Shown here: positions 9,991 through 13,488 of the stretch, one piece after another
Position numbering within the stretch: position 1 is the first letter of the stretch
Layout: the number at the start of each line of letters is the position of its first letter
From: Deltaproteobacteria bacterium
GTDB taxonomy: Bacteria > Desulfobacterota > Syntrophia > Syntrophales > Smithellaceae
Length of the DNA: 13,612 bases
Assembly (NCBI GenBank): GCA_019136325.1
Contig: JAGVUJ010000016.1
Location: 1-13,612 of the forward strand
Direction: 5' to 3'
Notes under the pieces: generated by a model
Seen by the model: only the letters and a program-made list of their open reading frames with translations
Told to the model about the DNA's origin: nothing
Databases searched by the model: none
Position numbers and translations under genes: made by a program

Positions 9991-10028
9991 TCCCGGATTT
10001 TCTCTTCGTTATTAAAAACTGATCTACA

Positions 10029-10050
10029 TGGGCTGAGGAGGATCGAACTC
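10029..10050 (-). other. tRNA 3'-end-like segment, possible attachment site
   Basis: Read on the minus strand, this segment is a T-loop consensus (GTTCGATC) followed by a T-stem and acceptor-like end (CTCCTCAGCCCA). The rest of a tRNA is absent: the bases upstream on that strand do not form a matching anticodon or D arm and pair only partly with the T-stem. A lone tRNA 3' end at a junction between core and accessory DNA is what an integrase leaves at the far side of an island. The orientation fits, with core genes lying past the 3' end. The tRNA identity is not clear. Confidence 0.3.
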
Positions 10051-10449
10051 ATCATTTAACATATCTTATTTATTACGTTTCTTTACAGTCCTGTTTATCA
10101 CATGCCCCCAAACATGCCCCCAAAATTAAAAAATTCAGGGATTTTTCACTCTGCTGCTGAAGCAGGAATTCCGGATCACGACTGAGCCTTTGGGGACTTA
10201 ATTTTAAAATAAACCCGCTGATGTTGACGCAAACTTTCACATGTGGTAAAATACACAGTAACGTGAGCAGAAACATTGCTTCAATCTGACTTCCGGAAAG
10301 GCCCTCCGGTTTGCCCACCTCGCCTTCGGGCGTGTTGTGAGGAACATGAGGGGTATCCACGGCCATCCCTCCAGGTTGCAGCAATTGATATTAAATCATC
10401 CGCACCCGCGTCAAAATGGCTATTGAAGTTTTGAGGCGTATAGGACGAC
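10051..10449. other. Island-edge stretch without a confident gene
   Basis: Apart from the 12-bp direct repeat I see no firm gene here. A minus-strand reading frame (10384 to 10073, or from an internal ATG at about 10366) would give up to 103 residues. It starts with TTG, has no usable ribosome site for the first codon, resembles no family I know, and its last codons read through the direct repeat. It may be a decayed gene end or non-coding. There is no integrase signature. Confidence 0.4.
10101..10124. repeat. Perfect 12-bp tandem direct repeat
   Basis: CATGCCCCCAAA occurs twice back to back (10101-10112 and 10113-10124), about 50 bases inside the tRNA-like segment. Short tandem repeats beside an attachment site often act as arm-type binding sites for an integrase or excisionase. 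That role is inferred from position only. Confidence 0.6.
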
Positions 10450-10830
10450 GCCATAGTGCTAAAGTGCCGTCCACCGGAAAAGCTCAGGCAGTGAAAGCGC
10501 TTTTCCCGCTCCCTTGGTGAGACACAGTAAGTGTCGGCTCATCAAGCGTAGGCATGGAAGCATCGGGATCTGCTCCAGGCACATCGGGGAAAGAGCTTTG
10601 CAAAGAAACTCCGCTCCCAGGTCATGACGATAATCGGAGTTATGGCCTGCGTAGGCCGGTGCCATAACCTTAAAGCCCGGCTCACCGGAATTCTTATTCC
10701 GCTCCCTCAGTGAAACGAGTACGTATAGGTTCATTGAGCGTAGGTCCGGCAGGGTCGCTACCCCCTCCGGAATCATCGGAAAAAGAAGGCTCCGCCCCCG
10801 GGCTTCTACCCTGGGTAAACTCGGAGCCTT
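10450..10830 (+). ncRNA. Tandem two-unit structured element, candidate ncRNA
   Basis: Two diverged units (10450-10648 and 10661-10830; both open with GCCATA, about 211 bases apart) fold into the same four hairpins in order. Hairpin 1 is GGAAAAGC/GCTTTTCC (10476-10506) versus GGAAT/ATTCC (10687-10700). Hairpin 2 is 10507-10548 versus 10700-10740, each with a 3-bp base, the same TCCC bulge, an 8-bp stem and a small top hairpin. Hairpin 3 follows GTAGG in both (10556-10576; 10746-10770). Hairpin 4 has the core CTCCG/CGGAG (10607-10641; 10786-10830). Several base pairs in hairpin 2 differ in both partners, keeping the pairing. A G-T pair at the same place in both copies favours the plus strand as the RNA. 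A minus-strand reading frame of 105 codons across it is unlike any protein I know. I do not recognise the family. Confidence 0.5.
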
Positions 10831-10840
10831 TGCTTTTTTA
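10781..10840. terminator. T-flanked strong hairpin, possibly bidirectional terminator
   Basis: AAGGCTCCG (10786-10794) pairs with CGGAGCCTT (10822-10830), with an inner CCCGGG/CCCTGGG stem. On the plus strand it is followed by TTTGCTTTTTT; on the minus strand by TTCTTTTT. It could end the plus-strand structured RNA and also the minus-strand small-gene operon arriving from 12977. Confidence 0.55.
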
Positions 10841-10845
10841 AATCA

Positions 10846-10909: not shown

Positions 10910-10979
10910 AAGACATCCGATATTTTAAGGATTCTCCACTTTTTGGCTTAAAACGGGGTCTCCCCTCCACTTTAGCCAT
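10863..10979 (-). CDS. Possible 38-residue small protein overlapping the RHH gene end
   Basis: The ATG at 10979 overlaps the stop region of the ribbon-helix-helix gene by eight bases and opens a 38-codon frame starting MAKVEGRPRFKPKSGESL and ending at TAA (10865-10863). The basic N-terminal half looks protein-like; the rest is less convincing. No clear ribosome site precedes it, so it would depend on coupling to the upstream gene. It runs through half of the 10-bp inverted repeat. I do not recognise it. Confidence 0.25.
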   Translation of the reverse strand: MAKVEGRPRFKPKSGESLKYRMSYNIHYVNLIQAVEGN

Positions 10980-11277
10980 GCTTTTTCAGCAAGTCTCTGA
11001 TATACTTTGATAAATCAACTCCATTGTTTTCAGCCTTTTTTGACAGTGCCTGGAATTCTTCTTCGGGCAACATGATGCTTATTTTCCGTGTCAATTTCGG
11101 ATCGGTCCGCTTGGCATCCATGGCCTTGACGCGCCTGGCCACCTTCAGTTTGGCTTTTATCCGGTCAATGTCAGCATAATCTGCCGGCGTTGGGATTTTC
11201 CCGGCTCTGATAAGATCGTGAATTTCCGCTTCTGCTTTCTGGAGATCCCTCTCCAATGCTTCGATTTCAGTGGTCAT
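10972..11277 (-). CDS. Ribbon-helix-helix DNA-binding protein with N-terminal coiled coil
   Basis: This is a 101-residue protein from the ATG at 11277, which has AAAGGA eight bases upstream; a longer GTG version (from 11313) lacks a good site. The C terminus is a ribbon-helix-helix fold: the strand 'RKISIMLP' (about 65-71), helix A 'EEEFQALSKKAENNG' (73-87) and helix B 'DLSKYIRDLLKKH' (88-100). This is the CopG/Arc-like pattern, and 'SKYIRDLL' is also common in MobC-type relaxosome proteins. The N-terminal half (1-55) is a charged helix likely to form a coiled coil. It probably binds a palindromic site as a dimer. Candidate targets nearby are the 10-bp inverted repeat at 10846-10909 or the operon promoter. 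It is one of the last genes of the minus-strand operon. Confidence 0.75.
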   Translation of the reverse strand: MTTEIEALERDLQKAEAEIHDLIRAGKIPTPADYADIDRIKAKLKVARRVKAMDAKRTDPKLTRKISIMLPEEEFQALSKKAENNGVDLSKYIRDLLKKHG

Positions 11278-11426
11278 GCTTATTCCTTTTCGATTCACCG
11301 GCAGGGCTTTCACCTAAACAGCCCCGCCCGCTTTATCTATTATTCCCACTTGGCGATTTCTCACCGTCACAGCACCTTTCTCATACCACAAATTAAAAAT
11401 CGGTTACAGGCCATTTAAACGCGACT

Positions 11427-12221
11427 CTATTTTTCAGCCCGTTCTTTTTCCATAAAGGCCTTTCCTGCGGCCGTCAGTATATCATCTTTTGACCGTTGCA
11501 ACGGTTTGCATTGTCCGCCCCTAACAACGTTCAAATGATCGATTCTTGTCCTTGGGATAAGGCTTCTTGTCGATGTCTGACAAGCTTTTTCACGAAACCC
11601 ATAAATAATGTTTTCTATTTTAGAAATCATTCCCAATGCCTCCTTGCTATCCTCTGTCGCCCATTTGATATATTCTTTTTCTTTTTCCGGCAGCCAACAA
11701 TCACTGATGCAGTCACTTCCAAGCCAACGCTCAGCTTGTTCAATTTTCTCCCTCAGTTTGTTAAGGGGTTTATCTATTTGCTCATAAAGCATATTCAAAT
11801 TGACGAACGTATCTTTTGTTATGTTCTGTTTTGGTTGCACCTGCTGATCCATTGGCATCTCTGGCAGACATGGCGCCTCTTTCCTCTTTCCTTGGTGTAG
11901 ACTCGGTTGTTTTGCTGGTTTTACTTTTTGTGGATCATCAAAAACAATCCTGTCTTTTTTAAAAACCTCCCAATTCGGTTTAGCTGGTCCACCAGACTCG
12001 AAGTGCAGCCCCATGCCATGCAATAACGACCATAAGTTACGACCTACGTTTTCGGGGCTTTCTTCAGCAGCTTTAAATAATCTATTTAGGCATTTGATAA
12101 GATCACGATGCCTTAAGACTTGAAGAGTGCCATCCCCTCTGTCCCATTCTTGTCCAATACCCATCATGCCATAGTAGTCTTCCACATAAACCTTTTCACC
12201 ATTTAGATAACGAATTTTCAT
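11427..12221 (-). CDS. Uncharacterised 264-residue protein
   Basis: I do not recognise this protein. The ATG at 12221 has AGGAGA about eight bases upstream, a clear start. An N-terminal region of about 85 residues contains 'GIGQEWDRGDGTLQVLRHRDLIKCL' and 'GRNLWSLLHGMGLHFESGG', and looks globular. A Pro/Lys/Gln-rich linker (about 97-135) follows. The C-terminal half is helical and charged, with a probable coiled coil (about 137-170). Four cysteines lie after residue 170 (two in SDCISDC), with no obvious metal-site spacing. There is no membrane segment or signal peptide. It lies in the island operon, 149 bases before the RHH gene. Base composition is richer in A/T than the mre block, consistent with transferred DNA. 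Confidence 0.75.
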   Translation of the reverse strand: MKIRYLNGEKVYVEDYYGMMGIGQEWDRGDGTLQVLRHRDLIKCLNRLFKAAEESPENVGRNLWSLLHGMGLHFESGGPAKPNWEVFKKDRIVFDDPQKVKPAKQPSLHQGKRKEAPCLPEMPMDQQVQPKQNITKDTFVNLNMLYEQIDKPLNKLREKIEQAERWLGSDCISDCWLPEKEKEYIKWATEDSKEALGMISKIENIIYGFREKACQTSTRSLIPRTRIDHLNVVRGGQCKPLQRSKDDILTAAGKAFMEKERAEK

Positions 12222-13233: not shown

Positions 13234-13488
13234 ATGAATAAGAAACAACGGAAGACCCTTGCTGATATTTACGAAAAACCGACCCGTTGCGACGTCTCAT
13301 GGAAAGCGGTGGAATCACTTTTCCGGGCGATAGAAGCGGATATCATTGAAGGGGCCGGTTCGCGTGTTTCCGTGGTTTTTAATAAGCGGGTGCTGAATAT
13401 CCATAAGCCACACCCGAGCGGTGAAATGAAAAAATATGCAGTCGAGAAAGTAAGAGACTTCTTGGTTATCATAGGAGTAAAACCATGA
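13234..13488 (+). CDS. hicA: HicA-family toxin (mRNA interferase)
   Basis: This 84-residue protein belongs to the HicA toxin family (double-stranded-RNA-binding-like fold; toxins that cut or block mRNA until neutralised by HicB). The body 'WKAVESLFRAIEADIIEGAGS' (23-43), the beta strands 'SRVSVVFNKRVLNIHKPHP' (43-61) and the C-terminal helix 'KYAVEKVRDFL' (68-77) follow the fold order of the family. The usual catalytic His of the G-S-H motif is Arg here (G42-S43-R44); His57 and His60 remain. The call is supported by the downstream hicB-like gene, which overlaps by ATGA. The start has no ribosome site, so low or leaderless translation is expected. It diverges from the island operon. Confidence 0.85.
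   Translation: MNKKQRKTLADIYEKPTRCDVSWKAVESLFRAIEADIIEGAGSRVSVVFNKRVLNIHKPHPSGEMKKYAVEKVRDFLVIIGVKP

Follow-up and report, generated by a model that had tools for sequence, protein, structure and literature searches.

An uncatalogued family of three-way-junction small RNAs, found behind the phage domain PBECR1 and as orphan units in bacterial genomes

The array and its surroundings

The stretch of DNA analysed here (hereafter the window) comprises 13,612 nucleotides of a Smithellaceae genome (GenBank assembly GCA_019136325.1, contig JAGVUJ010000016.1) and looks like the join between a block of cell-wall and ATP-synthase genes (named by eye, with a SurA-like protein recognised by Pfam) and an integrated island. 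On its plus strand, four three-way-junction RNA units of ~95 nt stand in tandem at positions 10392-10787, the first unit being weak. The array and its flanks hold the following features:

10224..10252, plus strand: promoter-like site TTGACG-17-TAAAAT, a weak candidate for the array promoter (10 of 12)
10280..10374, no strand assigned: conserved block ahead of the array (stretches in L010, L005 and L059 are 87-92% identical)
10392..10485, plus strand: unit 0, degenerate three-way-junction RNA (covariance model R1, 30.9 bits, E 4.4e-5; folding z -1.8)
10498..10595, plus strand: unit 1, three-way-junction RNA (R1, 78.9 bits, in the training set; exact motif 10506-10552)
10603..10696, plus strand: unit 2, three-way-junction RNA (exact motif 10611-10655; aligned in A3)
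10691..10787, plus strand: unit 3, three-way-junction RNA (R1, 87.4 bits, in the training set)
10786..10842, plus strand: terminator-like hairpin, then TTTGCTTTTTT (-22.9 kcal/mol, z -2.5; related hairpin in L010)

The motif CCGCTCCC-N-GCGTAGG occurs at three places in the window (10506-10552, 10611-10655 and 10699-10744) and in none of 200 shuffles, and the covariance model adds the weaker fourth unit. An earlier, sequence-only reading of this DNA had described two diverged copies with the same four hairpins in order; there are instead four units, each a three-helix junction of ~95 nt. The paired changes to which it had pointed agree letter for letter, T10515-A10544, G10516-C10543 and G10521-C10538 corresponding to C10708-G10736, A10709-T10735 and A10714-T10730; the G-T pair common to both copies (G10517-T10542, G10710-T10734) is also there, as are the 8-bp stem and the CTCCC joint. 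Unit 2 runs 6 nt into unit 3 and is absent from the R1 search list for the window, presumably because it overlaps the better-scoring unit 3. Folded singly and compared with shuffles, units 1-3 reach z scores of -2.3, -2.9 and -2.95, against -1.8 for unit 0.

Judged by the site at 10224-10252 and the hairpin at 10786-10842, promoter and terminator features are weaker in the window than in the family. The array region holds three promoter-like sites where 1.7 are expected by chance; in the Smithellaceae locus L010 the -35 element of the 10224-10252 site is kept and its -10 is the imperfect TAAAAA. Window units 1-3 have no good or strong promoter of their own in a sigma-70-type scan, and the hairpin is not among the plus-strand matches of a simple terminator scan. 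The block at 10280-10374, conserved over 72-95 nt, sits downstream of the unit in L059 and is possibly another conserved element.

Unit 3 finds its best full-length likeness in a phage unit linked to the domain PBECR1 (L001; 81.4% identity over 86 nt), L010 is closer for unit 2 plus the start of unit 3 (92.5% over 120 nt), and units in L006 and L008 match unit 2 with 85% identity over 80-81 nt. A blastn search of the element against phages and plasmids returned chance matches of 21-30 nt only, and a search of viral contigs for the neighbouring protein at 11427-12221 confirmed nothing. The minus-strand open reading frame at 10459-10776 was dropped as a gene, having no Pfam family; none was found for 10073-10384 either. 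The stretches 13234-13488 and 10972-11313 encode HicA-like (24.8 bits) and NikA/CopG-like (23.9 and 22.6 bits) proteins, all below the Pfam cut-offs, which fit an integrated mobile element. On the minus strand, 10020-10146 looks like a tRNA gene's 3' end with repeats of ATGCCCCCAAA after it, an arrangement seen at attachment sites, and is 75% identical to a stretch of L063 with a tyrosine integrase nearby; ARAGORN finds no tRNA there, nor a tRNA or tmRNA gene anywhere in the window.

Fold, strand and transcription signals of the family

Relatives were sought in public collections by DNA patterns drawn from the window units and later from the first relative as well, and were found in Syntrophaceae, Geobacter, Desulfobacteraceae, Comamonas, Prevotella, Verrucomicrobiaceae and phages. 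By eye, the architecture is shared by MAGs of Desulfobacteraceae (L005), Geobacter (L006), Syntrophaceae (L008, L012), Smithellaceae (L010), Verrucomicrobiaceae (L007) and Prevotella (L011), by Comamonas aquatica (L004) and by the viral contigs L001, L013 and L014. The pattern matches L002, L003 and L009 were rejected by eye as chance, the other constant parts being absent; a model search that covered L003 and L009, with L002 outside it, gave no match up to E 1.

Each unit is built from three helices, P1 closing the junction, P2 of 8-9 pairs and P3 of ~5 pairs (alignment A3, 23 units), with the constant segments CGCTCCC, GCGTAGG and CACCGG; CUCCC and GUAGG are exposed in the aligned units. RNAalifold recovers the same fold from A3, with double changes in 18 of 23 pairs. 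In the named structure 87.5% of the cells pair, against 60.7% after shuffling, and covariation is 0.703 against 0.199, falling to 0.131-0.194 when the structure is slid by 1-3 columns. The covariance model R1 led to a 62-row alignment, whose 60 distinct units have 85.6% of cells paired (58.1% shuffled) and a covariation of 0.700 (0.207 shuffled); alignment A5 is fitted to the structure, and the helices modelled are nested only. The covariation is real, bearing out the selection on structure that the sequence-only reading had proposed, and the units form an uncatalogued family of structured small RNAs. That reading had matched the element to no known family, and Rfam agrees: Rfam 15 gives 0 matches in the window at the gathering cut-off and six at E up to 10, all far below gathering, and in 12 loci with relatives it gives one match, an L13 leader outside the unit. 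The open-licence literature on polyvalent proteins, BPP-1 small RNA and structured RNAs (including PMC8040213) yielded no such RNA in the portions consulted; an account elsewhere is possible. In L040 (1308-1381 and 1501-1597) the Prevotella unit stands just upstream of the L13 ribosomal leader (RF03127), adjoining rplM by eye.

The distribution is sparse. Model matches were obtained in 9 of 155 genomes of the class of the L008 genome, in 7 of 395 of the phylum of the Geobacter genome (two of the seven already known), and in 1 of 150, 1 of 247 and 1 of 192 for the family of the Comamonas genome, the class of the Prevotella genome and the class of the L005 genome, the single matches being the starting genomes themselves; these genome-wide runs used stricter filters, at which weak matches are lost. 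Each of seven genomes holds 1-3 model matches at E <= 0.01.

The strand was read from the pairs. In P2, the 38 units outside model building have 31 G-U and 3 A-C cells, and 21 orphan units have 20 and 0, as aligned by a model trained on units of a first list that required 6 of 7 standard P2 pairs, G-U included, and whose own G-U counts are biased. P1 and P3 of the held-out units have no strand asymmetry (P1, 13 G-U and 17 A-C; P3, 11 and 9). With G-U frequent and A-C nearly absent in P2, the plus strand is the folded one; since G-T pairs form also in single-stranded DNA, this asymmetry alone is no proof of RNA. Folding energy alone cannot choose the strand, because over the whole stretch both strands fold equally well (z -3.0 for the other strand, -2.75 for the plus strand).

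Of 57 units, 25 have a sigma-70-type promoter immediately ahead of P1; windows placed farther upstream in the same DNA predict 3.0. It was counted where the score for TTGACA, TATAAT and extended -10 was >= 9 and the -10 ended between 14 nt before and 3 nt after the first model base; the 57 rows take in array-internal and window units and leave out contig repeats and weak units such as L084 and L113. The per-offset mean score peaks at -3 (z 6.3), and examples are TTGACA-17-TATATT (L058), TTGACA-17-AATATT (L059) and TTGACC-16-TAGAAT (L008). Upstream of the Prevotella unit stands TTTG-19-TAAATTTG, which we take to be a promoter of the Bacteroidetes type. TTTT follows at the P1 end in 16 of 46 units, against 4.1 expected (a count that omits the window and most array-internal units), so that P1 can serve as a terminator stem. 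A promoter before P1 and a T-run after it point to a small-RNA gene; from these signals, the elements are almost certainly a family of small-RNA genes, and the plus-strand RNA of the sequence-only reading gains support from the P2 asymmetry together with the promoters and T-runs at the relatives. In two Geobacter units (L006, 6215-6312 and 7456-7552) a similar leader of ~40 nt, AACTCTGAGGC..CCCCTGTGACAG, replaces the sigma-70 promoter.

It is very improbable that the units are instead a DNA element, whether a REP- or MITE-like palindrome or a single-stranded DNA site. Their scatter over several phyla would suit such an element, as would the tyrosine integrases near two orphan units (L010, where the integrase lies directly beside the array, and L063), and the GTAG beside a hairpin is reminiscent of REP elements; yet there are only 1-3 copies per genome in the seven genomes, and promoters and T-runs are in register with P1. 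REP/BIME palindromes are short structured tandem units beside GTAG. The present units resemble them in being short, structured, in tandem and beside GTAG, and differ in their low copy number, their promoters and T-runs and their fixed place behind PBECR1. The idea of a dispersed repeat was dropped on copy number, and the REP or MITE family that the earlier reading had set as its own counter-explanation does not fit 1-3 model matches per genome.

Placement behind PBECR1, orphan units and a second RNA class

PBECR1 is a domain of 125-137 aa, often within proteins of up to 2596 aa. Among 51 distinct viral contigs with PBECR1, 37 carry a unit directly behind the domain and antisense to it, one of them with a weak score (L039 = L113, 21.1 bits). 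The contigs come from two scans, of 22 and 45 viral loci. Residues encoded by the unit were part of the query in the first scan but not of the pattern in the second, in which 31 of the 45 loci carry a unit (L081 and L088 counted by their duplicates; 16 of the 31 are contigs already seen). The units of L026, L029 and L031 were found by a pattern script, not by the model. The distance from the end of the PBECR1 profile to the start of the unit is -7 to +13 nt in 50 of 56 rows, the rows including contigs fetched twice and the coordinates of L018, L026, L029, L031 and L036 coming from duplicates or near-identical contigs. All three viral loci judged true in DNA-pattern scans blind to PBECR1 adjoin it.

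PBECR1-linked units often lie in frame within giant polyvalent genes. In L001 the unit is in frame on the opposite strand of the gene for a 2596-aa polyvalent protein, between PBECR1 (884-985) and ART-PolyVal (1051-1183), a position shared by L013 and L014; the frame ends before the unit in Acinetobacter phage ABMM1 (L015), an A. baumannii plasmid (L073) and L027-L031. The earlier claim of selection on structure, not protein, stands for the window; in many phage relatives the same DNA is additionally translated in frame from the other strand.

The Pfam cut-off for PBECR1 (PF18809, 27.6) is passed in L001 (30.7 bits) and L064 (40.4 bits); L062, where the PBECR1 domain is apparently replaced, gave no Pfam family. 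Among 321 genomes of the class to which the Comamonas genome belongs, a Pfam search found four PBECR1 places, all four above the cut-off; at linked loci other than these and the two just named, the domain was assigned by a custom profile only. Three of the four carry a unit (L067; L068, the place of L049; L070, the place of L052), and the fourth, L069, has no match to the model. The match of PBECR1 to the BECR fold (colicin D, CdiA, RelE/ParE) is weak. Iyer et al. 2017 (PMC5512222) describe the domain, in polyvalent proteins, as a predicted endoRNase of the BECR fold that the virion likely delivers, and the consulted portions of that paper contain no mention of an RNA gene behind it.

The remaining 14 of the 51 viral contigs gave no model match. 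Two of them, L095 and L091, have by eye a different three-helix fold with a promoter-like site and a T-run, and L096, L100 and L110 have ends like Helicobacter phage proteins; the Helicobacter phages L016 and L017 have no model match even without filters, nor has the prophage L072. L069 and Bordetella phage BPP-1 (L071) hold a second structured class at the same place behind PBECR1. With L121-L124, all 42 cells of the stem around its constant loop GTGYCYGWCSTCG are paired (35 Watson-Crick, 7 G-U, 0 A-C), counted over six distinct sequences with five duplicates dropped and L127 left out; L127, a more distant relative, has no such loop in the part of its sequence examined.

Other units are orphans: the custom profile finds no PBECR1 in the flanking DNA examined of the window, L005-L008, L010, L040 (the place of L011), L053, L055-L057 and L059. 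Across 21 distinct orphan units 88.8% of cells pair, against 64.8% shuffled; this set includes L058, which has no recognisable PBECR1 and keeps only its last strand, its unit and TTGACA-17-TATATT lying inside a 1554-aa frame without Pfam match. Promoters of their own precede the orphans L008, L053 and L059. Neighbours include type IIG restriction enzymes (L006, L008), a HigB-like toxin (L055), a phage terminase (L007) and, in L056, a defence-type PLD/SNF2 helicase and a protein whose LPD3 match falls below the cut-off; this defence-gene company concerns few loci, taken without a control. Genome G077 holds one PBECR1-linked unit and two orphans elsewhere. Among six further full-length units from the search of a Desulfobacterota-type phylum, L130 adjoins PBECR1 (profile i-Evalue 1.5e-40), L131 adjoins a decayed PBECR1, and L132, L133, L135 and L136 have none in the flanking DNA examined; good promoters are not evident in all six. 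L004, like L131, stands beside a decayed PBECR1, and the orphans may partly be phage-gene debris. Only their neighbours suggest that orphans serve immunity.

Possible roles of the RNA

The placement makes a functional link between the RNA and PBECR1 likely. We tentatively read the RNA as directed against PBECR1, as its antitoxin or as an immunity RNA, the orphan copies residing in genomic islands, a proposal that is plausible and somewhat short of probable. Against it stand the 14 viral contigs, the Helicobacter phages and the prophage L072 that lack a model match, the possible debris among the orphans, the missing promoters of window units 1-3, the absent asymmetry in P1 and P3, the few defence-gene neighbours taken without a control and the weak BECR-fold match. 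The RNA would be transcribed from its own promoter and neutralise PBECR1; the most likely means is binding to the protein, in which the RNA may act as a decoy for the RNA that PBECR1 cuts. PBECR1-bearing polyvalent proteins are probably injected with the virion; the RNA would protect the cell that makes the virions, and orphan units, those of the window among them, would work in trans on the PBECR1 that infecting phages bring in. ToxI and AvcI are known examples of RNAs that inhibit protein toxins (PMC5086642, PMC10511110).

We favour binding to the protein over base-pairing to the message for two reasons: the three helices and the constant junction letters are retained across phyla and in orphans, and the unit reaches no farther than the edge of the PBECR1 domain. 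Both observations weigh against a cis-antisense RNA of type I-like kind, which would pair with the 3' part of the PBECR1 message and lower its expression, the orphans being leftovers: pairing needs neither helices nor constant junction letters, which are kept across phyla and in 21 orphans. The antisense orientation, the own promoter, the constant position at the PBECR1 3' end and the decayed PBECR1 beside some units are what such an RNA would predict, and we consider it unlikely. In the type I pairs TxpA/RatA and BsrG/SR4 an antisense RNA overlies the toxin 3' end, and the toxin is a small hydrophobic peptide. The present family shares with these pairs an antisense RNA that converges on a prophage toxin gene at its 3' end; here, in contrast, the neighbour is PBECR1, a predicted RNase domain of 125-137 aa often within a very large protein, and the RNA structure is conserved even without the target gene.

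We give a similarly low probability to a trans-acting regulatory RNA of phages and islands, acting for instance through its C-rich CUCCC on messages of bacteria or phages, with PBECR1 a mere travel companion. Orphans with promoters of their own (L008, L053, L059) and the exposed CUCCC and GUAGG segments would suit it, but a passenger would be expected to show neither the tight spacing to the PBECR1 end in unrelated phages nor, in BPP-1, another structured class in the same position. Less probable again is an RNA that serves PBECR1 as cofactor, substrate or passenger (e.g., in packaging or targeting) and does not inhibit it; the same linkage and the prediction of PBECR1 as an RNase (PMC5512222) would be compatible with it, whereas orphans persist without PBECR1.

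The antitoxin reading places the family near type III toxin-antitoxin systems (ToxIN, CptIN, TenpIN) and the type III-like AvcID, which likewise join a structured non-coding RNA to a toxic enzyme, an endoRNase in ToxIN, and also have tandem RNA units (PMC5086642, PMC10511110). It departs from type III, where the antitoxin repeats precede the toxin in one operon under one promoter, in that the unit has a promoter of its own and stands behind PBECR1 on the opposite strand, in that the fold is a three-way junction, the array units differ in sequence and the protein is PBECR1, and in that inhibition is here inferred. More speculatively, and with rather less confidence, the RNAs may represent a new RNA-based immunity, in which three-way-junction RNAs transcribed antisense to the injected phage RNase domains would neutralise them, the class of RNA would change with the RNase clade, and orphan arrays collected in genomic and defence islands would protect bacteria or resident prophages against RNases injected by other phages.

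A previously uncatalogued family with very strong covariation thereby gains a likely protein partner, a link that is invisible from the window alone, and the question of how RNase-injecting phages, and the cells that meet them, escape damage becomes testable; the second class sits in BPP-1, a laboratory model phage. The in-frame cases are striking for dual coding, with promoter, folded RNA and T-run opposite a giant open frame. A tandem second unit type, GCTACGC..GGACTCTAC..GGGAGCGG on the coding strand, lies downstream of the first unit in L019, L020, L023, L024, L027, L028 and L030, with model scores that are weak or none.
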